Notes under the pieces: model-generated
What the model was told of the DNA's origin: nothing
What the model saw: the letters and a program-made list of their open reading frames with translations, nothing else
Databases searched by the model: none
Position numbers and translations under genes: made by a program
Part shown: positions 19,429 through 47,128 of the stretch, piece by piece
Numbering within the stretch: the first letter of the stretch is position 1
How the letters are laid out: each line of letters opens with the position of its first letter
NCBI GenBank assembly: GCA_022778805.1
Contig: JALFSN010000003.1
Span: forward strand, 62,001 to 126,000
Source of the DNA: Arcanobacterium sp.
GTDB lineage: Bacteria; Actinomycetota; Actinomycetes; Actinomycetales; Actinomycetaceae
Direction: 5' to 3'
DNA: 64,000 nucleotides

Positions 19429-21156
19429 ATGATCTCACTAACAACTGATGTAGTGGTGATTGGCGGAGGGGCCACCGGCACAGGAACACTGCGTGATCTG
19501 GCCATGCGTGGCTTTGATGCCGTTCTGCTGGAGCGGGCAGACCTCGCCCAAGGCACTACTGGACGTTTCCACGGCCTACTCCATTCCGGCGGACGCTACG
19601 TAGTGTCAGATCCCGAGTCAGCCACGGAATGCGCCCAAGAAAATGAGATTATGCGGCATATACACTCTGATGCTGTGGAAGAGACCGGCGGCCTGTTCGT
19701 CGTCACCCCTTCCGATGCGGAAGACTATGCAGATACTTTTCTCGACGCAGCTCATGCCGCCCACGTGCCCGCCCGTGAAATATCCACAGCTGAAGCGCTG
19801 CGCCGTGAACCACGCCTCCACCCTAAAATCAAGCGAGCCTTTGAAGTGCGTGACGCCGTCATCGACGGATGGCGGATGGTGTGGGGCACGGTAGCCTCAG
19901 CGCAAGAATATGGAGCACGCGTCTTCACCTACCACCGCGTGACGGCAATCCACACCGATCAGGGAAACATCACTGGTGTGAGTGCCATCGACGAAAAGAG
20001 CGGGGAAACGCTCCACATCAGCTGCCGAGCCGTCATCAACGCCGGCGGCCCATGGGCGGGGCAGATTGCGGCACTTGCCGGAGCGCATGACGTCGATGTG
20101 GTGCCAGGACGAGGCATTATGGTGGCGATGAATCATCGGCTCGTCAATAGCGTCATCAATCGCTGCGTGTATCCCGCTGACGGCGATATTCTCGTTCCCG
20201 ATCACACCGTCTGTATTATTGGCACCACCGATCAAGAGGCATCCGACCCCGACTTCCTTGACATCAAACCCGACGAGGTGCAGCATATGCTTGACGCCGG
20301 CGAAGCCATGATCCCAGGATTTCGCCAGGCACGAGCCATACACGTGTGGGCAGGAGCACGCCCGCTCGTGCGCGATCGGCGAGTGAGCAAATCAGATACG
20401 CGGCACATGAGCCGCGGCATGAGCATTATTGACCACCACGAGCGAGATGGCATCGCCGGATTCTTCTCCATTGCTGGAGGTAAACTCACGACGTATCGCC
20501 TGATGGCAAAAAACGTAGTAGACGCACTCTGCGAGCAGCTCGGCGAAGATCGTCCGTGCCGTACAGCTGACGAAGACACGCCTGGAGCCACACCGCATAA
20601 CCACGCCATCACGGATCGACTCGCTCACGCCGAGCATGTGCGCACTGACGTTCAGTCGCGTGACCAGATCATCTGCGAATGCGAACTCGTGACGCGTTCG
20701 ATGATTGAGCAAGCTCTAGCCGAGCAGCCAACCGCCAACTTCGACGATCTGCGCCGGCAATTGCGCATCGGCATGGGGCCGTGCCAAGGGACGTTCTGTG
20801 CACCGCGACTAGCGGGCATTGTCCATGCCTGGAAGACAGAGCAGCTACGCGACCGCGGCAAAAAATCTGGCGAGCACGATCACGCACCGCAGCAGATCGA
20901 CGTCACCAATACGCAACTCAGGCTCTTTGTGCATAACCGTGACGGCGGCACAGCTCCCCTACTCTTTAACCAGCAGTTGAGAGAGGCCACTCTCAACCAT
21001 TGGGTGATGCAAGGAACTCTTGGAATTGCACATCTTCCACAGCCGAGCCAAGCAGCACTTCGCGCCACTGGCGATCTCGCGCTGCTCCACGGCACGCACA
21101 CTGCACCACCTGCCTTGAAAGCCAACTCTGCCCAGTGGAAGGAGATACACTCATGA
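19429..21156 (+). CDS. glpA: Anaerobic glycerol-3-phosphate dehydrogenase subunit A
   Basis: FAD-dependent catalytic subunit oxidising glycerol-3-phosphate to dihydroxyacetone phosphate. The 575-residue protein begins TDVVVIGGGATGTGTLRDL (FAD Rossmann motif), then ERADLAQGTTGRFHGLLHSGGRY, typical of GlpA/GlpD. The C-terminal region (about 410-465) carries a BFD-like Cys cluster, ICECEL and GPCQGTFC, as in E. coli GlpA and unlike aerobic GlpD. The start at 19429 follows TAGGAAAG; the frame extends to 19306 without support. The stop overlaps glpB (ATGA), so A, B and C are coupled. Control probably comes from the divergent SorC-type regulator. Confidence 0.95.
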   Translation: MISLTTDVVVIGGGATGTGTLRDLAMRGFDAVLLERADLAQGTTGRFHGLLHSGGRYVVSDPESATECAQENEIMRHIHSDAVEETGGLFVVTPSDAEDYADTFLDAAHAAHVPAREISTAEALRREPRLHPKIKRAFEVRDAVIDGWRMVWGTVASAQEYGARVFTYHRVTAIHTDQGNITGVSAIDEKSGETLHISCRAVINAGGPWAGQIAALAGAHDVDVVPGRGIMVAMNHRLVNSVINRCVYPADGDILVPDHTVCIIGTTDQEASDPDFLDIKPDEVQHMLDAGEAMIPGFRQARAIHVWAGARPLVRDRRVSKSDTRHMSRGMSIIDHHERDGIAGFFSIAGGKLTTYRLMAKNVVDALCEQLGEDRPCRTADEDTPGATPHNHAITDRLAHAEHVRTDVQSRDQIICECELVTRSMIEQALAEQPTANFDDLRRQLRIGMGPCQGTFCAPRLAGIVHAWKTEQLRDRGKKSGEHDHAPQQIDVTNTQLRLFVHNRDGGTAPLLFNQQLREATLNHWVMQGTLGIAHLPQPSQAALRATGDLALLHGTHTAPPALKANSAQWKEIHS

Positions 21157-22673
21157 GCACAGTCGTGGTCATCGGAGCAGGATTGGCTGGTCTCTCCAGC
21201 GCACTGATGCTCTCTGAGAGTGGACATCGCGTGAGCATTGTGGCTCGTGGATGGGGAGGACTCCTTCTCAGTAAGGGCACCATTGACATTCTAGGATGGA
21301 TTAATGACGGCGCTAGCATCGCTAGCGGTACGAGTGCTAGTGGTACTGACATCAGCAGCGCAAAAACCAGCGGCAACAGCATCACTGAAGGCGCCAGCAG
21401 TACTGACTTCACTGAGGGCACTGGTGGCACTGGCGATCAGCCCGTCGTGGCTGTAGCTCCGGCGCTCGCAGATTTTATTGCCGCGCATCCTGAGCACCCC
21501 TACGCGAGCATTGGCGCCAAGCACGTGCTAGCGGGAACGGCATGGCTCGCACGCCAACTCCCATTTTTCGCTTCGGAATCAGCGCCCGAGAAACCAGGCG
21601 ATCTGACGAATAAACTGCTCCCCACCGCGATTGGGGCTGTTCAGCCCTCGGCGTTCGTGCCAGAATCCATGGAGGCGAGCATCTTGACCGCAGGCGGCCA
21701 CTATCTCATCGTCGGGATTGATAATTTCAAAGATTTCCATGCTCACCTCGTGGCAGACAATCTGGCAGCCTGTCCATACGTGCACGTTCATACTCGCGCA
21801 GCATCCATCACGTTGCCGCTACGCAGCGACCGCAGTGACGACGACAATCCGGATGCCACCGGCACGACTATCGCCCGCCGTCTCGATATCTGTGACGGCG
21901 ACAGCGCCGATGGCGAACGTAGCCCCGAATTTATCTCGCTCGTAGAGCAACTCGCGGGACTGGCTCGCACAGGGGAGACGGTGCTGCTCCCAGCAGTTCT
22001 CGGCCTCAGTCCACAGACGTACGCCACGCTCAGCGCTCAGCTGGGCGTGCCCGTAGGCGAAATTCCCCTGCCGCCCCCGTCAATCCCTGGCAGGCGTATG
22101 CACGATTTCCTGGTGCATCAATGCCGCGAGCGCCGTATTGATATCCTGCTGAACGCCGAGGCCGTGGGCGTGACGCCGCACGCTGAAACTGGCGATAGCG
22201 GCGCGCCCAGCATACGTTCTGTGGCCGTGCGCGTGGCCGGACGGGTGAAACAGCTACCGGCAGACGCCGTCGTCTATGCCGGTGGAGGATTTGGATCGGG
22301 CGCTTTAGAACGAGATTCGTTCGGACACATGCGCGATACCGTCTGCTCTGCGCCAGTGTGGAGTCCTAATGGGGATATCTTCGGCTCAGGCTTGCGAGTA
22401 GATCAGTGGATGCGGCCAACGTCGCTTCCTACTGGTGTGGATCGTTCTGCTGGCGAATCTGCCAGCGCAATCTTTACAAATCTCTATTGTGCAGGCGACA
22501 TCATCGGCGGTGCACTGCCATGGAATGAGGGATCTGGCGAGGGAATTGCTCTCGGGAGTGCTTTTGCCGCCGCCGAAGCAGTGAACGCGATGGATCGCGC
22601 TCACGTGAATCACATTCAACAAGAGCCGTCGCACCAACGAAATATAGAAGCTGACACAAAGGAGGATCGCTGA
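21153..22673 (+). CDS. glpB: Anaerobic glycerol-3-phosphate dehydrogenase subunit B
   Basis: Flavoprotein subunit linking GlpA to the membrane-anchored GlpC. The 506-residue protein begins STVVVIGAGLAGLSSALML (FAD/NAD fold), then the GlpB signature WGGLLLSKGTIDILGW, and ends with GDIIGGALPWNEGSGEGIALGSAFAAAEA. A Ser/Thr/Gly-rich low-complexity stretch of about 40 residues (53-92; bases 21309-21437) is inserted after IDILGWIND, where the family normally continues straight on. The start at 21153 overlaps the glpA stop and follows GGAAGGAG inside glpA. The stop overlaps glpC by one base. Confidence 0.93.
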   Translation: MSTVVVIGAGLAGLSSALMLSESGHRVSIVARGWGGLLLSKGTIDILGWINDGASIASGTSASGTDISSAKTSGNSITEGASSTDFTEGTGGTGDQPVVAVAPALADFIAAHPEHPYASIGAKHVLAGTAWLARQLPFFASESAPEKPGDLTNKLLPTAIGAVQPSAFVPESMEASILTAGGHYLIVGIDNFKDFHAHLVADNLAACPYVHVHTRAASITLPLRSDRSDDDNPDATGTTIARRLDICDGDSADGERSPEFISLVEQLAGLARTGETVLLPAVLGLSPQTYATLSAQLGVPVGEIPLPPPSIPGRRMHDFLVHQCRERRIDILLNAEAVGVTPHAETGDSGAPSIRSVAVRVAGRVKQLPADAVVYAGGGFGSGALERDSFGHMRDTVCSAPVWSPNGDIFGSGLRVDQWMRPTSLPTGVDRSAGESASAIFTNLYCAGDIIGGALPWNEGSGEGIALGSAFAAAEAVNAMDRAHVNHIQQEPSHQRNIEADTKEDR

Positions 22674-24022
22674 TGCTCACCCATGCTTCTCAGACATCCG
22701 ACGCCATTGATAGTGCCAGAGCCTCGCTCGCGCGGGTGTCTCTCGACTCATGCGTCAAATGCACAATCTGCGAGAGCCAATGCCCCGTGATGCGCTCTAC
22801 TGATCTTTTTTCTGGCCCGAAGTATGTCGGCCCGCAAGCGGAACGTTTCCGGCACGGGAAATCAGTCGATCATTCTCTCGATTATTGCTCGGGCTGCTCA
22901 ATCTGCACGACTACTTGCCCACAAGGGGTGAAGATTGCCGAGATCAATGCCCAGGCGCGCGCCGTCATGAAAGCAGATCATATGCCACTGCGCGACAGGC
23001 TCATCACGCAAACGGAACTTGAGGGGAAAGTGCTGACGCCGTTCGCTCCCCTCGCTAATGCGGCTTTGCACGCCGCTCCCATCCGAGCAATCGTGCAAGG
23101 CGTTGTCGGTGTACATAAAGACGCCCCGATGCCTACTGTGCAAAAGTATTCATTCCCCGCCTGGTGGAAAAAACATGAGCGGCGTCCGCTCAGCGAACGC
23201 CGAGTGAGCGCTGGCATCACCCCTGGCGAGCGCGGCCCAATCGTGTTCTTCCATGGGTGTGCGGGAGGATATTTTGAGGTAGCCACGTCGATTGCCACCG
23301 TGGAGGTTCTGGAATATCTCGGATACTCCGTCATTGTGCCCCCGCAAGGATGCTGCGGCCTCGCTCAGCAATCAAATGGCCTCTTTAAGCAGGCAACTCG
23401 CAAGGTACGCGCTGTGTGCAAACAACTGCGCTCAGCCGGACGCGATCTCGTGATTGTGAGTTCCAGCGGTTCGTGTGCCGGCATGCTGCGCCATGAAGCA
23501 CACGAGATTATGGGAATTGACGATCCAGAGCTGATCGACGTGGGCTCACGCATGGTGGAGACATCAGAATTTTTGCTGGAATTGATGGACAGCGGAGAAT
23601 TCCCCATCCACGATTTGCAGCGGTGCGATCTCACCATCCCCTACCATCAACCGTGCCAGGTGAAATCCCAGGGAATTGGCAAACCCGCCATTCGCATGAT
23701 GGAGGCAATTCCTGGCGTGAGAGTAGTGGAATCAGAGCAGGCATGTTGCGGAATCGCCGGCACATATGGGCTGAAGAAAGAAAAGTTCGACGTCGCCCAG
23801 AGAGTGGGAGCACCACTTTTCGAGATGGTTCAACGCACGAATCCAGAGTTGGCGGCCTGCGAGACGGAGACCTGCCGGTGGCAGATTCGGCAAGGCTCCG
23901 GAGCAGAAGTGATCCACCCCGTGCAGCTTATTCACCACGCTCTCGGGTTAGCAGGCACCAGCGAGTTACGTGGAATGCCGTGGAATAAGCTCCCCGAAAA
24001 AGGAGAACACAAGCACACATAG
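22673..24022 (+). CDS. glpC: Anaerobic glycerol-3-phosphate dehydrogenase subunit C
   Basis: Iron-sulfur subunit that anchors GlpAB to the membrane and passes electrons to quinone. The 449-residue protein has two 4Fe-4S motifs near the N-terminus (CVKCTICESQCP and CSGCSICTTTCPQG) and two CCG domains further on (GCCGLAQQ and ACCGIAGTYG), as in GlpC and heterodisulfide reductase subunit B. The ATG overlaps the glpB TGA by one base (TGATG) behind AAAGGAGGAT. No succinate dehydrogenase or other partner is adjacent. A strong hairpin 270 bp further on probably ends the glpABC transcript. Confidence 0.95.
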   Translation: MLTHASQTSDAIDSARASLARVSLDSCVKCTICESQCPVMRSTDLFSGPKYVGPQAERFRHGKSVDHSLDYCSGCSICTTTCPQGVKIAEINAQARAVMKADHMPLRDRLITQTELEGKVLTPFAPLANAALHAAPIRAIVQGVVGVHKDAPMPTVQKYSFPAWWKKHERRPLSERRVSAGITPGERGPIVFFHGCAGGYFEVATSIATVEVLEYLGYSVIVPPQGCCGLAQQSNGLFKQATRKVRAVCKQLRSAGRDLVIVSSSGSCAGMLRHEAHEIMGIDDPELIDVGSRMVETSEFLLELMDSGEFPIHDLQRCDLTIPYHQPCQVKSQGIGKPAIRMMEAIPGVRVVESEQACCGIAGTYGLKKEKFDVAQRVGAPLFEMVQRTNPELAACETETCRWQIRQGSGAEVIHPVQLIHHALGLAGTSELRGMPWNKLPEKGEHKHT

Positions 24023-24295
24023 TCTCATCTGCATGATATTTTCGCGATGCTTCCCGATGCGCCCTGCTCCTGATATGCAAGGCTCCTGACGTGCAGGGCA
24101 TGGCACCGGATGTTTCGCAGAGAACCCCACAAAAAAATTCGCTATTTCCATCGTCGGAGTGTCCTATCACTCCGAGGGCGAAGCGCGGCCATACGGTACT
24201 CACCAGCGTGCATGGCATTCACTGGGCGGTATTCCATGGTGGCATTCACTGGCAAACCCAGAAATACCTGATAGCCGTGTTCTGCACAGCCCGAG

Positions 24296-24329
24296 ACTTG
24301 CTGCTCGCGCGCCTCTGCGAGCAGCAAGT
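24296..24329 (+). terminator. Hairpin between glpC and glpF
   Basis: A perfect 13-bp stem (24296-24308 with 24317-24329) with an 8-base loop, followed by a weakly T-rich stretch (CTTCTTCAT). It probably terminates glpABC and leaves glpF under its own promoter. The rest of the 387-bp gap holds a direct repeat GGCATTCACTGG at 24213-24224 and 24241-24252, but no gene. Confidence 0.7.
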
Positions 24330-24369
24330 GTGCGCTTCTTCATAAGAATCTCTTCCCAAGAAATTATGT

Positions 24370-24391
24370 GAATACGCAAAGGTGCGTATTC
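24370..24391 (+). promoter_or_regulatory. Perfect inverted repeat ahead of glpF (operator candidate)
   Basis: GAATACGCA (24370-24378), a 4-bp spacer, and TGCGTATTC (24383-24391) form a perfect 9-bp dyad ending 18 bases before the glpF ATG. The GTATTC core is shared with elements ahead of glpA and glpK. It could be bound by the SorC-type regulator, or act as an RNA hairpin near the ribosome-binding site. Confidence 0.6.
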
Positions 24392-24409
24392 TCGTCAGAA
24401 AGGGTATGT

Positions 24410-25153
24410 ATGTCTCTTCCACATATTTTTCTGTCCGAGTTTATCGGCACGGCATTTTTGCTCTTACTCGGCGTGGGCGTCTGTGCAAACGTCACACTAC
24501 GCAAATCTAAAGCTGCTGGAGGCGGCTGGCTTTTAATCACCATCGGGTGGGGCTTGGCCGTATTTGTCGGCGTCTATGTAGCATATGCAACTGGCGCACA
24601 CCTTAACCCTGCCATTACGCTCGGCTTCGTCGCCTCTGGAAAATCCGAGTTTATGCCAGGGATTCCCATCACGTTTGCCACCACCATCACGTACATCATC
24701 GCTCAGCTCCTCGGTGCTATTGTTGGGGCAGTGACGGCGTGGCTCGCGTTCAAGCAGCTGTACGATGAGCATGAAAGCCCAGCAGATAAACTCGGCACTT
24801 TTGCCACTGCCCCAGCCATCCGCTCATACGGATGGAACGTCCTCACGGAGGCAATTGCCACGTTCGTCCTCGTCTCCTGGGTGATGCTCTCTGGCTATAC
24901 TCAATCCGGTCTCGGCCCGCTCGCAGTATCACTCGTTATCGTCGCTATCGGCGCTTCTCTCGGCGGCCCCACCGGCTATGCGATCAACCCCGTGCGTGAT
25001 CTTGGCCCCCGTATCGCACATGCCCTTCTTCCAATCAAAGGAAAAGGCAGCTCTGACTGGGCGTATGCGTGGGTACCCATCGTCGGCCCCATCGTCGGCG
25101 GCGTCATCGCTGGAGCTATTTTTGGCCCTATGTTTGGCGTGCTCGCCCATTAA
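24410..25153 (+). CDS. glpF: Glycerol uptake facilitator (aquaglyceroporin)
   Basis: Six-TM channel for glycerol diffusion across the membrane, 247 residues. The first half-helix motif is canonical, AHLNPAITLGF. The second reads GYAINPVRDLGPR, so the usual Ala of NPA is Val (bases 24986-24994), while the selectivity-filter Arg and the Asp typical of glycerol-conducting members are kept. The ATG at 24410 follows AGAAAGGG; the upstream frame begins inside the operator candidate and is unlikely. glpK follows 77 bp on, a common pairing. Glycerol is the expected substrate given the neighbours. Confidence 0.95.
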   Translation: MSLPHIFLSEFIGTAFLLLLGVGVCANVTLRKSKAAGGGWLLITIGWGLAVFVGVYVAYATGAHLNPAITLGFVASGKSEFMPGIPITFATTITYIIAQLLGAIVGAVTAWLAFKQLYDEHESPADKLGTFATAPAIRSYGWNVLTEAIATFVLVSWVMLSGYTQSGLGPLAVSLVIVAIGASLGGPTGYAINPVRDLGPRIAHALLPIKGKGSSDWAYAWVPIVGPIVGGVIAGAIFGPMFGVLAH

Positions 25154-25190
25154 TCGCGAGCCACAATCAAAAACCATATTATTGATACAT

Positions 25191-25204
25191 ATTCGTGTGT
25201 ATTC
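25191..25204 (+). promoter_or_regulatory. GTATTC element ahead of glpK
   Basis: ATTCGTGTGTATTC (25191-25204) lies 27 bp before the glpK start and shares the ATTCG and GTATTC words with the glpA (19141-19150) and glpF (24386-24391) control regions. The left half of a dyad is poor here (GATACA), so this is a weaker site. Confidence 0.35.
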
Positions 25205-25230
25205 ACAACGACGTGAGAAAAGGACTCATG

Positions 25231-26739
25231 ATGACAGAGAAAAAATACGTGCTCGCTATCGACCAAGGTACTACGTCTACCCGCGCTATCCTGTTTAACC
25301 ACTCAGGTGAGATTGTCTCCACTGGTCAGCTTGAGCATCAACAAATCTTCCCGCATGCAGGATGGGTGGAACACGATCCCATCGAGATTTGGGAAAACAC
25401 TCGGAAAGTTGTGGGCGAAGCTCTCTCCACAGCTGAAATCAACCACCACGAGGTTGCCGCAGTGGGTATCACAAACCAACGCGAAACCACCATCGTGTGG
25501 GATCGACACACGGGAATGCCCATCTATAATGCCATCGTCTGGCAAGATACTCGTTCGCAAGACATCGTTGATCGCCTTGCCAGCAAGGGAGGAGAAGACC
25601 GCTTCCGCTTTATCGTGGGCGAGACTCTCTCCACCTATGCTTCAATCACCAAACTTATGTGGATACTGGAAAATGTGCCTGGAGCACGCGAAAAAGCCGA
25701 AGCTGGCGACTTGTTCTTTGGAAACCCTGATACCTGGGTGATCTGGAATCTCACTGGCGGTATTAACGGCGGTATCCATGTGACGGACGTTACTAACGCT
25801 TCGCGCACGATGCTCATGGATCTGCACACCCTCACCTGGCGGGAAGATATCTGCGAGATCGCCGGCATTCCTATGAGTATGCTTCCTGACATCAAGAGTT
25901 CAGCAGAAGTGTACGGACATGGGCGCCAAACTGGCCTGCTCCCTGGCGTGCCTATTGCTGGAGATCTCGGCGATCAGCAAGCTGCCACATTTGGACAGGC
26001 GTGTTTTGAACCTGGGATGGCTAAAAACACCTACGGCACCGGCTGTTTTATGCTGATGAACACCGGCGAAGAACCGCAATTCTCGGACAATGGCCTCATC
26101 ACCACAGTGTGTTATCAAATCGGAACGCGCAAACCCGTCTATGCCTTAGAAGGCTCTATCGCCGTCACCGGATCTCTCATCCAATGGTTGCGCGATAATT
26201 TACAGATTATTGATAGCTCTAGCGATGTGGAGGCTCTCGCCCGATCTGTCGATGACAACGGCGGAGTCTATTTCGTGCCGGCCTTTTCTGGCCTCTTTGC
26301 TCCCTATTGGCGTGGCGACGCCCGCGGCGTCATCGTGGGCATGACCCGTTACAATACGAAAGCGCATATCGCCCGCGCAGCCCTTGAAGCCACAGCATTC
26401 CAGACGCGCGAGGTATTGGACGCTATGGAAGCAGATTCTGGCGTAAAACTTGGCGAGCTGCGCGTCGATGGCGGTATGACGGCGAACGATCTGCTGATGC
26501 AATTCCAGAGCAATATTCTCAATACTCCCGTTGTGCTTCCCAAGGTGGCTGAAACCACCGCCCTGGGGGCTGCCTATGCGGCGGGAATTGCCGTGGGTTT
26601 CTGGAGCGGAGAAGAAGACGTAATCTCTAATTGGCATGAAGCTCATCGGTGGAATCCTGCCATGGATGCCGCCGAACGCGATCACCAGATTCATCAATGG
26701 AAAAAAGCCGTGAACCGTACCCTCGACTGGGTGGACTGA
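25231..26739 (+). CDS. glpK: Glycerol kinase
   Basis: Phosphorylates glycerol to glycerol-3-phosphate with ATP, trapping it in the cell. The 502-residue FGGY-family protein shows the phosphate-1 loop [10 protein letters not shown], the substrate segment [13 protein letters not shown] and [25 protein letters not shown], and the adenosine-binding [17 protein letters not shown]. Two ATGs stand in tandem (25228 and 25231); spacing from AAAGGA favours the second. It follows glpF closely and is ended by a large hairpin. The His phosphorylated by PTS in many Gram-positive kinases could not be assigned with confidence. Confidence 0.96.
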
Positions 26740-40289: not shown

Positions 40290-41366
40290 CTATAGTTTAG
40301 CTGCTGGATTTGCTTGCGGGATTTCTTCCACACACTGCCAGGCATGAGTGACGGAGAATTCACAGTAATCGCCTACACGATACGGCTGTGGAACCCAGGC
40401 CACGAGCGTTCCCACTTCCGTTTCCAGATCTATTTCGTAATGCGAGCGAGCAAACGTGCACCGAATCACTTGCCCTACGCTGCCTACCACGTTTGTGCTG
40501 TGAGCAGATCGCAGGTTGATTCGCGAAGGTGCAATCACTACCTGTATACCGCGGCCATCGCCTGTCTTCCCATGCACATCCAGATCGTGAGCAGCGTGAG
40601 AAAACTGCGGAGAATCCAAAGTGAGCACCGACGGCTCCAAAATAAGCCTTGCCTGCGGTTGCGTGAGAATGTTGGGCACTCCCATGAGTCGCGCTACGCT
40701 CGGCGAAACTGGGCAGAAAAATAATTCTTCAGGAGTTCCTACTTGTACTACTGCCCCTTCCTCCAGTACCGTAATCCGATCTGCCACAGCACACGCATCC
40801 GCAATATCGTGCGTCACGTATAGCACAGCGAGCCCTAAGCGGTGCGTTTGATTGAGAAGCTCAGCATGAATATCAGCACGTACTGATGCCTCTATATGCC
40901 CGAGGGGCTCATCGAGCAGCACGGCGCGCGGCCGGCGTACGAACGTGCGGGCAAACGCCACCCGTTGCCGCTGCCCAGCGGAGAGGCTAGGTGCATGATG
41001 GTCCGCCAAGCCTAAAATGTTCAGCGACGACATAGCGATCGTGGCAAGATCGTGGCGCTGGCGAGGAGACTGCCGCGCATCGTCGAGTGCAAATTCAATA
41101 TTTGCACGCACACTCATGTCGAAGAGGGCAGGGCGCTCTAGCATCATCCCCACAGGGCGCCGCTGCACCGGAATATCCGTTATATGTGCGTCATCTACGA
41201 GCACACCTCCTTCACTGAGTTGCGCAAAACCAGATATCACGTTCAGCAGCGTGGTTTTCCCTGAGCCTGACGGCCCCACAAGCGCCATCACTTCCCCATC
41301 GTGCACATACAGCGAGATATTGTGAAGCACGTCATCCACGGACACATCGCGAAGCTCTAGACTCAT
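40290..41366 (-). CDS. ABC transporter ATPase (Fe3+/thiamine/phosphonate type)
   Basis: A 358-residue energy-coupling subunit. It shows Walker A GPSGSGKTT, the Q-loop region, signature LSAGQRQRVAFARTF, Walker B AVLLDEPL and the H-loop YVTHD, then a C-terminal TOBE-like regulatory domain (about 240-358). The class is that of PotA/FbpC/ThiQ. The ATG at 41366 overlaps the permease stop by one base (TAATG) behind GGGGGAGGAAA, so it is coupled to the fused binding-protein/permease. The substrate is unknown. It is followed after two bases by dgt. Confidence 0.92.
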   Translation of the reverse strand: MSLELRDVSVDDVLHNISLYVHDGEVMALVGPSGSGKTTLLNVISGFAQLSEGGVLVDDAHITDIPVQRRPVGMMLERPALFDMSVRANIEFALDDARQSPRQRHDLATIAMSSLNILGLADHHAPSLSAGQRQRVAFARTFVRRPRAVLLDEPLGHIEASVRADIHAELLNQTHRLGLAVLYVTHDIADACAVADRITVLEEGAVVQVGTPEELFFCPVSPSVARLMGVPNILTQPQARLILEPSVLTLDSPQFSHAAHDLDVHGKTGDGRGIQVVIAPSRINLRSAHSTNVVGSVGQVIRCTFARSHYEIDLETEVGTLVAWVPQPYRVGDYCEFSVTHAWQCVEEIPQANPAAKL

Positions 41367-43873
41367 TAGTTTTTCCTCCCCCATCCCCGTATAGCCAGTC
41401 CACCCATCGCCACCACGAGCGTGCCGAGAGCCCCCACTAACAAGCTCACAGAAAAGATTCCTTGCTCCATTCCTCCCTCTGCTAAACTCACTAAATTCGG
41501 TGATTCCACTCCGAAATATGCTGGCTGCACAAACGAAAGAGTGGCGGTTTGGGCGAGGGTGACGCCAAAGATGATGGCAGCCACTCCCATCAGTCTGCCG
41601 CGTATCTGATGCATCAGCAGCGCTAACACTCGCATGGTGACGCTGCCCATCGCGCGCGCGGAGCGGGCGATCTCCATCAGCTCAGGACGGGAGAGCGCAA
41701 TGAAAAAGTACGCGAGTGGAATAGTTACGGCCAGATATGCAATCGTCACGGCCAGAGTTCCTCCAGCAAACGAATACCGTCCCACGAGTGGAGGAAGCAC
41801 AGTGACTGTGCCAATCTGAATCGACTGACGGAATGTGAGTGTGAACCACAACCCCACCGCCACTGGCGCACACAGAAGAAGGAAAATCATGAATGTATGG
41901 ATCGCTCCGGGGAAACGCCACTCGCACACAGTGCAGGCGATGCCTACCACCACCGCCACCACCGTGGTCATAACGCCGATCAGCGCTTTAGTTCCCAGCC
42001 AACTCAGCCCATCAACGTGAAACGTCCCCTCGGCAGAGTTGGCAATCATCACTGCCACAAGACCCACTAACACTATTGTCCACACTGCCACGAAACCAAA
42101 TAAGAATAGTCGCTCTCGGGAAAAATAACGTTTCATAAAACTGCTTGAGGCATGAGCGTGGGCAAAGTTTTCGGATACATCAGCCACATGCTCTCGCGGA
42201 TGCTCTCTGCTGCGATCGGACACAGAATTTCGGGTAATGCACCGACCTTCGCGCATTACGCGATAGAGAATCCCCAACACTGCAGCCGCACACACTGCCA
42301 GCGCCACATACACTGCGAGCGCACCTAAACTTTCCCTTCTCCCTAAGTTCACGGATGTGATAGCCATATTGATGAGTAGATCGTGCCGCCCACCGTAGGC
42401 GGCCCCAGCAGAATCGTCGAGCATAAACCAGAGCGTGATAAACACTAAGCTAATTGCCGATGCCGCACAGTGGTGAGGTCCCGCCGTCACTGCGAGAGTG
42501 CGCAGCGGGCTGCTCCCTAAGTTTGCTGCGCTCATCAGTTGTGCGCTACTCACGTTCATGCTCAACGCCACGTGAATCACAAAAGCCAGCGGCACTCCGC
42601 ACAGAGCAAAGGTGATACACAGGATAGCTCCTGAATAAGGGTTGAGCGAAAAAGGCGACTTCGATAGGGCTGCCGCCACAGCCACTGAGGGACATAATAT
42701 CGGGGCACATGCTAGCACTGCTATGAGCCATCGAGCCCGCCCACTCAAACGATACGCCACAGCGAGAAGCGCCCCCATAATGGTGGCAATCAGTGCGCCC
42801 ACACACGCCAAACTAAAGGAACGCCACAGCGGCCCAATCACTCCGTGTGGATACATGACCGTGCGCGCATAATCGTGCAGGAGCGCCTCACGCTGTTCAG
42901 CGTTTACATCAATATTGCGGGTGAATATCTCCACTCCGAGCTGATCGAGCTGAGCGAGCCGATCGGTGAGATTATTGGGCAGCTCTAGTGAAACAGGGCT
43001 TTGCCCTTCCACCTGTGCCATGATTTGTTGCCCGCGATTAGAAACGGCATACTCAAGAAAAGCCCGCCCTGCATCCACACGCCCACGCGCCAGCACAGCT
43101 CCAGCGCCTACTTCAAATCCAGTGCCGTCTTCGGGAAACACGACGGAAGGAAGAAGAGCTTCTTCTTCCTGCGGCGGCACCAACTTCGATGAACTCTGGC
43201 AATATGGGGCAAATGTGACGGCCACGTCTGCCCGGCCACTGCGCACAAGACGAGCGGGATCGGTGCCGGAAGAAGTGTAATCAATAGTGTTTTCATGTAG
43301 CCGCTTCATATATGCGATGGCAGCACTTCGCTCACCCAGCCGCTCACTTTGCACAGCCAACATTGTGGCAGCTGTGCCACTAGTGAATGCTAACGGCAGC
43401 ACTACTCGCCCCTGATAGTGCGCAAGATCTTCCCACGTATGCGGAATTTTTACCCCTTGAGTTACACAAAATGCCAGCACTCCACCATAGGTTCCCAGCC
43501 ACGTGGATGTGCGAAACCGCTGCGGGATTGCCGGTGCCGACAGCTGATGCGGAGCCAGCGCGTGAGCTTTATCCGCCAGTTCATAGGCCTCCGCCGGCCC
43601 TCCGATCCACACATCAAATTCAGAATACCGAGAGCCACTTCGCACTTGAGCGAGTGCTTCGGTGGTGGGCATTCTTATCATTTGTGCACTCGTCCCCGTG
43701 AGATTTTGATAATCGTCCACGAGTGCTTTGCACGTGGATTCGTTGTTGGAACACAACACCATCACATCTGGATCAAAATCGTGTGTGGCAATCACCGCTC
43801 CGACCGCCACGGCACACGCACATAGTGCCACCACTATGCGCGGTATCATTCGGCGAATCCACAGGGAGTGCAT
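41366..43873 (-). CDS. Fused substrate-binding protein and double permease of an ABC importer
   Basis: An 835-residue single chain. Residues 10-29 are an uncleaved-looking TM anchor. Residues 35-335 form a periplasmic-binding domain of the Fe3+/phosphonate/thiamine class (FDVWIGGPAEAYELADK, TWEDLAHYQGRVVLP, YTSSGTDPARLVRSGRADVAV). Two permease modules follow (about 345-555 and 605-833), each with an EAA-type loop (SAANLGSSPLRTLAV; ARSARAMGSVTMRVLALL), joined by a hydrophilic link rich in Arg, His and Ser. Double-module permeases (ThiP, FbpB) are known; adding the receptor to the same chain is unusual. The ATG at 43873 lies seven bases from a TATAAT, suggesting a leaderless message; ATG at 43849 is an alternative. 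Coupled to its ATPase downstream. Confidence 0.88.
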   Translation of the reverse strand: MHSLWIRRMIPRIVVALCACAVAVGAVIATHDFDPDVMVLCSNNESTCKALVDDYQNLTGTSAQMIRMPTTEALAQVRSGSRYSEFDVWIGGPAEAYELADKAHALAPHQLSAPAIPQRFRTSTWLGTYGGVLAFCVTQGVKIPHTWEDLAHYQGRVVLPLAFTSGTAATMLAVQSERLGERSAAIAYMKRLHENTIDYTSSGTDPARLVRSGRADVAVTFAPYCQSSSKLVPPQEEEALLPSVVFPEDGTGFEVGAGAVLARGRVDAGRAFLEYAVSNRGQQIMAQVEGQSPVSLELPNNLTDRLAQLDQLGVEIFTRNIDVNAEQREALLHDYARTVMYPHGVIGPLWRSFSLACVGALIATIMGALLAVAYRLSGRARWLIAVLACAPILCPSVAVAAALSKSPFSLNPYSGAILCITFALCGVPLAFVIHVALSMNVSSAQLMSAANLGSSPLRTLAVTAGPHHCAASAISLVFITLWFMLDDSAGAAYGGRHDLLINMAITSVNLGRRESLGALAVYVALAVCAAAVLGILYRVMREGRCITRNSVSDRSREHPREHVADVSENFAHAHASSSFMKRYFSRERLFLFGFVAVWTIVLVGLVAVMIANSAEGTFHVDGLSWLGTKALIGVMTTVVAVVVGIACTVCEWRFPGAIHTFMIFLLLCAPVAVGLWFTLTFRQSIQIGTVTVLPPLVGRYSFAGGTLAVTIAYLAVTIPLAYFFIALSRPELMEIARSARAMGSVTMRVLALLMHQIRGRLMGVAAIIFGVTLAQTATLSFVQPAYFGVESPNLVSLAEGGMEQGIFSVSLLVGALGTLVVAMGGLAIRGWGRKN

Positions 43874-43992: not shown

Positions 43993-45390
43993 TCAGTGTG
44001 CCTCTTGCTGACGGAGCTTGTGCTCTTCCATCAGACGGCGTTCGTCTTTGCCCACAATCGCCATCAGGATGAGCGAGACTACCACCACACACAGCAGGGT
44101 GCCGTACGTCACGTTCCAACCGAAGTAATGAATCAAAAGCCCCACACCAGAGGAAGCGAGTGTGGCACCAAGCAGATAGCCAAAGAGCCCTGTGAATCCA
44201 GCTGCCGTGCCTGCCACATTCCGAGGCGAGAGATCAATTGCTTGCAAGCCAATGAGCATCACTGGCCCGTAGATTAAACCACCAATCACGCCGATCAGCA
44301 TGTAGAACATCCACAGCGGGGCTGTATTCGGCAACAGCCAGTAGAAAGCAAGAGCCACGCCCACACCTCCGAGGAAGAGCAAGCCTGCGCCAGAACGCCA
44401 CCCTTTAAACACTTTGTCGGACACCAAGCCGCACAGAAGTGTGCCAACAATGCCCGCACCCTCATAGATAGCGAACCCGATAATGCCTTCTTTGATATTA
44501 ACGCCGTGCACTTCTTCCGTAAGGTACACCGGAATCCAGCTCAAAACGCCGTAACGCAGCGTATACACGAACACGTTTGTGACGGCGAGTAGCACGATCA
44601 CCCTGTTTGTGAGCACGTGCTTGAACAGCATCTCTTTCCACGAGCTACCTTCCGAATCTGCCGCTTCCACCTTCGCAGGATCGTTGCGATATTCCTCGAT
44701 AGGCGGCAAGCCCACGGCCTCCGGACGGTCTCTGATAAGGATGAAAGCAATCAGCGCCACTATGAGTGCCACGATCGCCGGAGCCCAGAAAGCTGGGGTC
44801 CAATCCGCTTCATCCTTGGAAAAGTTGGTGAGTGCCCACGCCGCAATGACGCCTACTCCAGCACCACCCACATTGTGTGCACAATTCCAGATCGACGTCA
44901 TCCACCCACGTTCGTTGGTGGAGAACCAGTGCACAAGGACGCGCCCTGACGGAGGCCAGCCCATTCCTTGGAACCAGCCGTTAATAAACATCACGATGGC
45001 AAACACTCCCACAGACGCAGTGAGCACCGGCACAAATGCCACGAGCAAGTTCATCACTGCCGAGAGCGCCAGCCCAATAGGAAGAAAATAGCGAGCATTA
45101 GAGCGATCTGAAAGCATCGCCATAAAGAATTTAGAAAGTCCGTAGGCAAAGAGCACAGCGTTGGCCACAATTCCAATACCAACCGTGTTGAATAAACCAT
45201 TCTCTTTCAGAATAGCTGCCACGAGCGAAACGTTGTTGCGAATGAGGTAGAAGCCGGCATAGCCAAGAAAAATACCAGCAAACACCCGCCAACGCAGTGA
45301 GCGATATAGCGTCGCTACTTTTTCTGCCGGCACCGGATCGGCTTTCGGCGGAGCTGAAAGGAAACCAAGCGGCCTCGATTGCGTGGGCAT
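43993..45390 (-). CDS. glpT: Glycerol-3-phosphate transporter (organophosphate:Pi antiporter)
   Basis: A 465-residue MFS protein with 12 TM helices that exchanges glycerol-3-phosphate for phosphate. The segment GWFQGMGWPPSGRVLVHWFSTNERG and WNCAHNVGGAG closely follow E. coli GlpT rather than UhpT, and GYAGFYLIRNN marks the substrate Arg of TM1. The ATG at 45390 is backed by GGAGG; the frame to 45465 is unsupported. It lies downstream of a two-component pair on the same strand, with a perfect 9-bp dyad in the 212-bp gap. It complements the GlpABC/F/K set 18 kb away. Another phosphorylated C3 substrate such as phosphoglycerate cannot be excluded. Confidence 0.88.
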   Translation of the reverse strand: MPTQSRPLGFLSAPPKADPVPAEKVATLYRSLRWRVFAGIFLGYAGFYLIRNNVSLVAAILKENGLFNTVGIGIVANAVLFAYGLSKFFMAMLSDRSNARYFLPIGLALSAVMNLLVAFVPVLTASVGVFAIVMFINGWFQGMGWPPSGRVLVHWFSTNERGWMTSIWNCAHNVGGAGVGVIAAWALTNFSKDEADWTPAFWAPAIVALIVALIAFILIRDRPEAVGLPPIEEYRNDPAKVEAADSEGSSWKEMLFKHVLTNRVIVLLAVTNVFVYTLRYGVLSWIPVYLTEEVHGVNIKEGIIGFAIYEGAGIVGTLLCGLVSDKVFKGWRSGAGLLFLGGVGVALAFYWLLPNTAPLWMFYMLIGVIGGLIYGPVMLIGLQAIDLSPRNVAGTAAGFTGLFGYLLGATLASSGVGLLIHYFGWNVTYGTLLCVVVVSLILMAIVGKDERRLMEEHKLRQQEAH

Positions 45391-45475
45391 ACATAACCTC
45401 CGAGATCGTCGTTGAAACTCTGATGCATTCATCATAAGAAGCCCACGGTCACAGCAGTGGCTCACTAGGTCACAC

Positions 45476-45602: not shown

Positions 45603-46313
45603 TCAGGATTCACCAACCTCCAGAGCGCCAAGATCGAGCGAATAGCCCAATCCACGGTGACTGCGCACACAAGCGGGATTGACGCCAGCTTGCTCAAGAT
45701 GCTTGCGCAGACGATACACAGCCGTTTTCACCATTTCTCGCCCTCCCGCAAGTGCCGCCGATCCCCAGGCAGCAGAAATAATCTCTCGAATGAGGACCAC
45801 ATCCCCAGCATGGCGTGCCAACACTCCTAAAATTGCCACCTCAACTTGGCTTTCCGTAATCACTACCCCGCGATACCACGCACGATCCAGATCAGTATTA
45901 ACGGTGATATCCCCTGCCACGATCTCATGAGATTGGTGCTGCGGAGCCACCCTGCGCACAATTGCTTGCGCACGTAATGCAAGTTCACGAGGACTAAAAG
46001 GCTTCACCATATAGTCATCTGCTCCAGCTTCCAACCCCGCAATGCGGTCTGATTCTTGCCCGAGAGCCGTGAGCAAAATAATCGGCGTGGAAATATGAGC
46101 AGCCCTCATCTTGCGCGTTATTTCGATTCCTGAACCCTGCGGCATCAACACATCGAGTACCACAAGATCGTAGTGATTGCGCTGGATAAGTTCCCATACA
46201 GCTCCCGCAGATGTGGCACTCTCGCAAGAAAATCCTTGCGTTTCTAGGGCAAAAGTGACGATTGAAACCATTTGTACTTCGTCGTCAGCCACTAATGCTC
46301 TCGGCTTGCTCAT
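45603..46313 (-). CDS. OmpR/PhoB-family response regulator
   Basis: A 236-residue two-component regulator. The receiver domain (1-120) has the acidic pair DDE at 10-12, the phosphoacceptor Asp54 in DLVVLDVLMPQG and Lys in MVKPFSPRE. The C-terminal winged helix (about 135-230) includes SQVEVAILGVLARHAGDVVLIREI and TAVYRLRKHLEQAG, typical of OmpR/PhoB DNA binding. The ATG at 46313 overlaps the kinase stop by four bases, so the pair is co-translated. glpT follows 212 bp downstream on the same strand, suggesting control of organophosphate uptake. Confidence 0.92.
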   Translation of the reverse strand: MSKPRALVADDEVQMVSIVTFALETQGFSCESATSAGAVWELIQRNHYDLVVLDVLMPQGSGIEITRKMRAAHISTPIILLTALGQESDRIAGLEAGADDYMVKPFSPRELALRAQAIVRRVAPQHQSHEIVAGDITVNTDLDRAWYRGVVITESQVEVAILGVLARHAGDVVLIREIISAAWGSAALAGGREMVKTAVYRLRKHLEQAGVNPACVRSHRGLGYSLDLGALEVGES

Positions 46314-47128
46314 TCGTTCACCTCATCACTAGCTTGATCGCCGTGCGCGGGGAGTACCACATGAATAGTAGTTCCATGAGTGGCGAGTGAATCTACCAGA
46401 ATCTCTCCACCATGCGCCTCAACTATTTGCTGTGCCACCATCATGCCTATCCCCGTGCCGGGGCGCCTATTTGAACCGACACGGAACGCTTCAAACATGT
46501 GCTCTTGGTCTTCTGAAGAGATGCCAGCTCCATTATCAGAGACAATCAAGAGGGCACCTCCGCCCTCAGCATTGCGCACATACACAGTCACGGTAGCATC
46601 CTCCCCTGCATGGCGCGTGGCATTATTCACCAGGTTCCACACGAGTTGGCGAATCAGCTGCGGATCGGCCATGATCGGCAGCGTCCCTCCTGCCGCGTCC
46701 ACGTAGATTGGAACTGGAGTGATTCTGCGCATCTGCCGCGCCGTCTGAGCCACAATTTCGCGAATATCTACCGTTTCTCGCGCAACGGGAAGATGGTTGG
46801 CCAGGCGGGCATCAATTAAAAAATTCTCGGCAATATTGATCACTTGAGTGGTGTTTTCCGTGATCGTAGTGACGAACGTGCGCTGCTGATCTGTGAGCGG
46901 GCCGGCCAGTCCCTCGGCAAGGAGCTCAGCTGCTCCGTTAATGAGAGCAAGTGGGGTGCGGATCTCGTGAGAAATCACTGTGGGGCGTTGCTGGCGAGAT
47001 TCAATCTCCGCTCGTAGCTGTCTGTTTTCCCGCATGACGCGTCTCATTCTCCACCAAAAGATGAGGGCGATGGCAGCGGCAACGCACACCGCAATAATCA
47101 GCCCTACGCCAACGATCAGGCTATCCAC
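46310..47128 (-). CDS. Sensor histidine kinase with no extracytoplasmic domain
   Basis: A 272-residue kinase. One TM helix (about 3-26) is followed at once by a short linker and HisKA with the phosphoacceptor His54 in VISHEIRTPLALINGAAELL. The HATPase domain shows the N-box LVWNLVNNATRHAG and the G-boxes VSDNGAGIS and GTGIGMMVAQQIVEAHGGEI. There is no periplasmic sensor, PAS or HAMP, so it must sense within the membrane, in the cytoplasm or through a partner protein, as UhpB does with UhpC. GlpT next door could be such a partner, but this is inference. The start is a GTG at 47128. Confidence 0.9.
   Translation of the reverse strand: MDSLIVGVGLIIAVCVAAAIALIFWWRMRRVMRENRQLRAEIESRQQRPTVISHEIRTPLALINGAAELLAEGLAGPLTDQQRTFVTTITENTTQVINIAENFLIDARLANHLPVARETVDIREIVAQTARQMRRITPVPIYVDAAGGTLPIMADPQLIRQLVWNLVNNATRHAGEDATVTVYVRNAEGGGALLIVSDNGAGISSEDQEHMFEAFRVGSNRRPGTGIGMMVAQQIVEAHGGEILVDSLATHGTTIHVVLPAHGDQASDEVNE

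Follow-up and report, generated by a model that had tools for sequence, protein, structure and literature searches.

A solute-binding receptor fused to both permease modules of a candidate organophosphate ABC importer in Arcanobacterium

We analysed a stretch of 64,000 nucleotides from Arcanobacterium sp. (assembly GCA_022778805.1, contig JALFSN010000003.1, positions 62,001 to 126,000), which is called the window below and in whose numbering its features are given. On the minus strand at 41366..43873, the window holds an unbroken open reading frame (ORF) of 835 amino acids, in which the ORF list, Pfam and alignments place a solute-binding receptor ahead of the permease of an ATP-binding cassette (ABC) importer. 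This ORF overlaps by 19 nucleotides the frame of a 364-residue ABC ATPase (40290..41384, minus strand), which carries Walker A, the signature LSAGQ, Walker B and the H-loop and lies 2 nucleotides from the dgt frame. The cassette has the order histidine kinase, response regulator, GlpT-like carrier, receptor-permease fusion and ATPase. Thus, as a sequence-only reading of this DNA had claimed, the receptor and both permease halves form one chain and only the ATPase is separate; its fixed 1:1 receptor ratio also holds, as one receptor and both modules share the chain. That reading had left out the GlpT, kinase and regulator neighbours, the loss of the first permease helix and how quickly the ABC part diverges.

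The chain begins with a hydrophobic anchor, seen by hydropathy and alignment at residues 10-28 (43790..43846, minus strand, as are all features of the chain), in which we saw no lipobox. The solute-binding domain occupies residues 37-335 (42869..43765) according to Pfam and alignment with solved structures. Residues 336-352 (42818..42868) form a junction, where the receptor C-terminus runs into the loop before the second transmembrane helix (TM2) of a permease, TM1 being absent. By hydropathy and profile alignments, module 1 extends from TM2 onward over residues 353-545 (42239..42817) and module 2 over residues 590-833 (41375..42106). Their coupling (EAA-type) loops lie at residues 446-465 (42479..42538) and 735-755 (41609..41671), and the glycines G453 and G743 in these loops are invariant in 11 fused chains. 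Pfam recognises only the receptor part (SBP_bac_11 at residues 45-286, 4e-10; SBP_bac_6 at 139-299, 2e-7). Therefore, profile alignments were used to judge the permease identity. In these, the permease parts from 11 fused chains aligned with 12 split permeases at E=8e-60 over 458 columns (window residues 346-831) and with 12 outer-lineage permeases at E=1e-19 over 444 columns. L036, the only one of these twelve outer-lineage permeases that was scanned with PF00528 and PhnU2, matches the two models at 1e-24 and 2e-79. Among the relatives, PF00528 matches L026 (0.008) and L032 (7e-4) weakly and does not match L024 and L066. All four ATPase motif patterns are present at 46 of 56 loci, including the window, and the ten misses concern the signature pattern only. 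PhnT2 is the second best named model of the ATPase, with a score far under its cut-off. With two modules, coupling loops and ATPase motifs, the window chain and its ATPase have the predicted features of a type I ABC importer.

In split permeases, TM1 is followed by a loop and then by TM2. The fused permease profile aligns with these permeases only past TM1 (from template column 45), and in the fused chains, with the exception of that from genome G199, the receptor C-terminus reaches the loop before TM2 within a few residues. Permease TM1 has apparently been lost in the fused chains. The helix at the N-terminus of the fused chains aligns with the helix of split anchored receptors (alignment A1), and therefore we assign it to the receptor and not to permease TM1. 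Because the S-x-W-x-R n-region ahead of this helix is at least 90% conserved in 20 aligned fused and split anchored receptors, we argue that the anchor has been retained. It would stay uncleaved in the mature protein; in that case, the receptor would be held at both ends, one per translocator. The basic N-terminus and the basic loop after TM2 fit an N-in orientation, as for TM1.

A protein search found relatives in 86 of the 213 genomes of the family to which the window belongs. Among the fetched loci, receptor and permease share one frame in 13 genomes with four genus codes (G000, G004; G033, G113, G115, G116, G117; G035, G216, G217, G218, G221; G199), which belong to Arcanobacterium, Trueperella and one further genus. 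The fusion is carried by, among others, Arcanobacterium phocae (G117), Arcanobacterium sp. S3PF19 (G004), a Trueperella metagenome-assembled genome (G216, near-identical to G217) and T. bernardiae (G218). Relatives of the split kind occur, among others, in Flaviflexus, Ancrocorticia, A. bovis, A. ihumii and T. bonasi. The unfetched family matches lie in open frames of at most 521 amino acids, a length that cannot accommodate the fusion. Outside the family, the 80 kept of 201 relatives from a contig search with alignment A1 show no fusion; with the window protein as query, this search gave no match. At the order level, no fusion was seen among the matches listed (396 genomes), and at the phylum level 7 of 396 genomes matched at E<=1e-40, the window's own being the only fusion. 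Long open frames in G442 and G304, from the same order, were rejected as fusions when the loci were inspected. The chain of G199 was likewise considered as a receptor-permease-ATPase triple fusion and rejected, its ATPase gene being separate. In this chain (L074, 5429-8014), about 45 additional linker residues separate the receptor from TM2, and the fusion is perhaps a different or younger one.

Because 13 genomes carry the same fusion, it is not a sequencing artefact. The frame could nonetheless fail to give one protein in the cell, if it were a sequencing error or if an internal start produced a separate permease: many relatives have two genes with an overlap of a few bases, and in 7 of the 12 other fused chains, some of the GTG or TTG codons close to the junction follow a Shine-Dalgarno-like sequence. 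However, neither of the ATGs within window residues 318-378 has such a sequence upstream, and a detached permease would be without TM1. Furthermore, purifying selection runs through the junction in G116 and G117, the one close, unsaturated pair of fused genomes used for dN/dS (0.15 for the receptor, 0.10 for the junction and 0.17 for the permease). With the 13 fused genomes, these results leave very little weight for such a split product. The sequence-only reading had named a stop near residues 335-345 in other isolates as the sign of two separate genes; the outcome is mixed, as other relatives do have two genes and 12 other genomes are fused, but it does not refute the fusion.

The relatives exist in three states: a lipoprotein receptor, a receptor with a membrane anchor, and a receptor fused to a permease without TM1. 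At 40 GlpT loci, the receptor N-terminus has a lipobox in 12 cases and is broken in 1; in the others, 14 split and 13 fused receptors, it is a membrane anchor that lacks a lipobox. The anchor classes were read by eye, since the lipobox pattern had put true lipoproteins in the wrong class (L032, L083 and many of the loci that lack GlpT). These three kinds look like successive steps, presumably in the order given. In a receptor tree of 50 of 57 stretches (56 loci and the window), a single clade (100/99) unites the 13 fused with 13 split anchored receptors, and the fused ones sit at two places within it. L038, L039, L076, L093, L097 and L098 (distant, broken or without a receptor) were left out, as was L078, whose contig stops before the ATPase. 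This tree needs two changes for the fusion, but a single fused clade is not rejected (p-AU 0.262). A joined tree of five proteins (32 of 38 rows; L033, L080, L084, L085, L090 and L099 left out) also needs two changes, and one change suffices in 11% of 200 bootstrap trees. Thus, the fusion may have arisen once or twice. A reversal from fused to split is considered unlikely, as it would require TM1 to return.

The other genes of the cassette lie upstream of the fused chain, on the same minus strand. A GlpT-like organophosphate carrier of the major facilitator superfamily is encoded at 43993..45465 (487 bits against a glpT cut-off of 633). Among solved structures, it matches 1pw4 at 1e-121, and glucose-6-phosphate exchangers (SLC37A4) only at 4e-37 to 3e-33. 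In the alignment with 1pw4, R45, K80, H165 and R269, which we take to be the substrate residues of GlpT, look conserved. Model matches identify an OmpR/PhoB-type response regulator at 45603..46313, and a histidine kinase at 46310..47128 has one N-terminal transmembrane helix, no extracellular domain and its histidine at residue 54. At 39 of 40 GlpT loci, all six components of the cassette (kinase, regulator, GlpT, receptor, permease and ATPase) are present, in varying order; L078 is the one incomplete locus, on a contig of 7.5 kb that stops shortly after the receptor. The histidine could be placed by the H-box pattern in 31 of 51 kinases; 30 of these have a single helix, and the remaining one has two helices separated by a 2-residue loop. 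Among named models, the kinase scores best against PhoR and PnpS, and the regulator against RpaB, CreB and PhoB; none of these matches reaches its cut-off. Elsewhere in the window, GlpB, GlpC and GlpK (over their cut-offs) and a MIP channel lie at 21000-26739, and the genome of the window has two GDPD genes elsewhere. At G000:C5:120085-123098, a GDPD gene lies near a 617-residue frame that matches BPD_transp_1 twice and may represent a second organophosphate importer of this genome.

Some related cassettes are irregular. At L088 (6035-8005, G071), the frame of the response regulator runs without a stop into that of the lipoprotein receptor, likely through a draft error or a frameshift near the end of the regulator. 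The cassette of Schaalia cardiffensis (G175, L076/L111) appears to be decaying: its receptor, permease and kinase frames are broken up, and a full-length GlpT frame lies beside them. L166, catalogued as Vibrio cholerae, has GlpT, kinase and regulator and a receptor N-terminus nearly identical to that of Arthrobacter L165, L173 and L179; this contig is probably an actinobacterial contaminant.

The nearest solved relatives of the receptor are 8x1a (1.3e-18), AfuA (4r72-4r75, 1.4e-18) and P5PA (6wce, 2.5e-15). In AfuA, Ser37 and Thr150 contact the phosphate of glucose-6-phosphate, His205, Asp206 and Glu229 contact the sugar, and alanine at any one of the latter three abolishes binding (PMC4546632). 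In P5PA, the phosphate is held by Thr37, Ser147, Gly148, Thr149 and Ser183 (PMC8427247). By alignment mapping, the phosphate-contact positions are kept in the window as T70, S165-G166-T167 and S202, where the match of P5PA S183 to S202 comes from the AfuA alignment and the motif, without a direct P5PA alignment. Glu229 of AfuA is kept as E254 and His205-Asp206 is replaced by P223-Y224. Among 136 loci, the His-Asp pair is present at 65 of 72 without a GlpT match and at 4 of 64 with one; this count includes some duplicated loci, two broken rows and two distant ones, and a GlpT gene may have been missed on short contigs. In other words, the loss of His-Asp goes in step with the GlpT neighbour.

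The kept phosphate positions suggest that the substrate is probably a small phosphate ester. Because the phosphate site is kept, His-Asp is lost, GlpT is a neighbour and Glp genes lie nearby, glycerol-3-phosphate is our best guess, which we offer tentatively. AfuA, as one of the nearest solved relatives with the same phosphate site, might instead suggest a hexose-6-phosphate importer like AfuABC, and Staphylococcus aureus combines a receptor, a kinase, a regulator and a carrier in a comparable way, the receptor HptA signalling to HptS to control UhpT (PMC8774646). However, the His205 and Asp206 that AfuA each needs for glucose-6-phosphate are Pro-Tyr in the window, and the carrier is far closer to 1pw4 than to SLC37A4. 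Thus, a hexose-6-phosphate importer is unlikely. The sequence-only reading had assigned the system to the Fe3+, thiamine and phosphonate class. In line with this, phnS2 is the best named receptor model (NCBIfam, 1e-17), and the top solved match, 8x1a, is annotated as iron-binding. However, the phnS2 score of 64 bits is far below the cut-off of 393, no PhnU2 match to the fused chain was among the matches listed, and other iron-named receptors match much more weakly (8k7n, 5e-7; 1xvy, named sfuA, 2.5e-5). AfuA too was formerly annotated as an iron transporter (PMC4546632), and the alignment printed for 8x1a carries the AfuA-type His-Asp. Because the nearest solved relatives with a known ligand bind sugar phosphate or pyridoxal phosphate and the phosphate positions are conserved, this assignment is not supported; import of Fe3+, thiamine or 2-aminoethylphosphonate seems quite improbable.

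Taken as a whole, the data point to a single-chain receptor-translocator of the AfuABC/PhnS2-PhnU2 class, placed in an organophosphate cassette under two-component control, and we consider this explanation probable. The helix of the receptor itself would stand where TM1 stood, sharing its N-in orientation. With an uncleaved anchor, the receptor would be tethered at both ends, and there would be one receptor per translocator. The ATPase homodimer would drive a normal type I cycle, for which the glycines of the coupling loops and the ATPase motifs are kept. The receptor would bind a small phosphate ester, with glycerol-3-phosphate or a related compound as the likeliest candidate, and pass it to its own permease. 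Finally, the kinase would take its signal from a membrane partner, either the fused transporter or GlpT, and control the cassette. PhoR, without a periplasmic domain, is proposed to read the conformations of PstSCAB (PMC5775613); the kinase here, having no outside domain, may therefore read a transporter in the same way.

The rates of divergence bear on the main role of the chain. Between G033 and G115, the identities of the fused ABC parts are 52.3% (receptor), 45.5% (permease part) and 55.0% (ATPase), against 74.5% for the kinase, 79.6% for the regulator, 88.4% for GlpT, 93.8% for glyS and 79.0% for dgt. The lipoprotein-type importers of the same two genomes are 95.3, 94.6 and 95.5% identical (fused type L024/L061; lipoprotein type L037/L100), and this importer may have been transferred recently between them. 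In all four further fused pairs, the ABC parts are less identical than GlpT, kinase, regulator, glyS and dgt. Between G199 (fused) and G187 (split, lipoprotein type), receptor, permease and ATPase are 37.7, 29.8 and 37.0% identical, versus 65.0% for GlpT, and the lipoprotein-type importers without GlpT are 57.5, 64.7 and 81.7% identical. Thus, as the lipoprotein-type receptor of this pair also diverges, fast change of the receptor is not limited to the fused kind.

These identities would also suit a division of labour in which GlpT performs the uptake and the fused ABC complex mainly senses a phosphate ester for the kinase. Kinases without an outside domain, the PhoR-like models of kinase and regulator and the reading of PstSCAB proposed for PhoR all agree with such a role, and a fixed single receptor suits sensing. 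The UhpC-UhpB pair is a precedent of a transporter-like sensor for a kinase. However, the ATPase motifs and coupling glycines are kept. Moreover, kinases without an outside domain also accompany lipoprotein importers without GlpT, and therefore sensing is not tied to the fusion. Sensing as the chief role is thus possible, if on the unlikely side. A form of it that we hold slightly less likely again is an ABC importer turned into a transmembrane receptor, with its binding domain in place of permease TM1 and fixed to the membrane at both ends, one per complex. Its ligand-driven ATPase cycling would be read by the kinase, which would set the GlpT level for bulk uptake; if so, the drift of all three ABC parts with their motifs kept would be the mark of a changed job.

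The sequence-only reading had called dgt and dnaG, into which the importer is read, an odd setting for a nutrient importer. However, no match to dgt, dnaG or dus was found in the 11 to 16 kb surrounding each of the 12 other fused genes, and in 5 of 10 same-genus genomes (G003, G004, G006, G007 and G009) dus and dgt lie close together, within about 110 bp, without a cassette. In G008 the gap is about 1.2 kb, and G001 is interrupted by a contig end. Thus, dgt and dnaG are bystanders, and the relevant neighbourhood lies upstream and not downstream. Between dus and dgt of G005 (L196, 3859-4068), there is a 70-residue remnant of the ATPase gene with 76% identity; the 0.66-kb dus-dgt gap of G002 (L195) has no detectable remnant. 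The simplest reading is that the cassette stood at dus-dgt in an ancestor shared with G005 and was later lost there.

Several observations weigh against a single-chain organophosphate importer. The cassette has apparently been lost in a close relative and would therefore be dispensable, and an ABC part that diverges far faster than two housekeeping genes is unusual for a needed importer. BPD_transp_1 (PF00528) was not found in the 835-residue protein by Pfam, even at E<=1, nor was the fused chain among the 33 permease matches of a whole-genome scan with PF00528. No equivalog model scored over its cut-off on the fused protein, and the top solved match of the receptor has an iron-binding annotation. 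The loss of TM1 is not visible from hydropathy counts alone: after the receptor, 9 of 13 fused chains have 11 helices, 3 have 10 and 1 has 12, and among 14 split anchored permeases six have 12, six have 11, one has 9 and one has 13. In addition, signal peptidase may cut the anchor.

The single-chain importer, if correct, has consequences beyond this cassette. One receptor per translocator, tied twice if the anchor is kept, would limit docking and release, and the fused chain offers a natural test of whether import needs free exchange of receptors. The relatives preserve the apparent steps from lipoprotein to anchored to fused receptor, and the cassette would be a compact case for how kinases without an outside sensor read transporters.

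Several known systems share parts of this arrangement. PhnS2-PhnU2-PhnT2 (TIGR03261/3262/3265) provides the best named models of the receptor and of the L036 permease, all far under their cut-offs, and the PhnS2 receptor is not known to be fused to a permease. In EgtUBC, OpuA and GlnPQ, a receptor is covalently joined to a permease, as in the window. OpuA and GlnPQ are half-permeases that dimerise, so that each complex has two or four receptors, and PotCD of mycoplasmas is a receptor-permease fusion. To our knowledge, known receptor-fused importers bring two or more receptors per translocator. In EgtUBC, the receptor is C-terminal to one six-helix module (PMC9732360), whereas the window chain contains both modules and one receptor. 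The sequence-only reading named receptor fusions from glycine-betaine and glutamine systems; EgtUBC shows that these are not the only ones (PMC9732360). A literature search on receptor-permease fusions and on these genera, with partly narrow terms and incomplete coverage, found no account of the present architecture. AfuABC has the same receptor family, the same phosphate-contact positions and the same receptor, permease and ATPase parts, but as three separate proteins with a soluble periplasmic receptor that has His205-Asp206; the accessible text mentions neither GlpT nor a kinase, unlike the window cassette (PMC4546632). The pyridoxal-phosphate importer P5PAB shares the receptor family and the phosphate site, but its genes are separate and its ring-contact His203 is unmatched in the window (PMC8427247). 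HptASR-UhpT, like the window cassette, links a receptor and a two-component system to uptake of a phosphate ester; HptS, however, has a periplasmic domain that binds HptA, which the window kinase does not have (PMC8774646). PhoR-PhoB-PstSCAB, in turn, couples a two-component system to a phosphate importer, and PhoR, which works with PhoU, shares with the window kinase the absence of a significant extracellular domain (PMC5775613). The accessible parts of the papers on these two systems mention no fused receptor-permease (PMC8774646, PMC5775613). The window system is a new architectural variant of a kind of importer that is already known.

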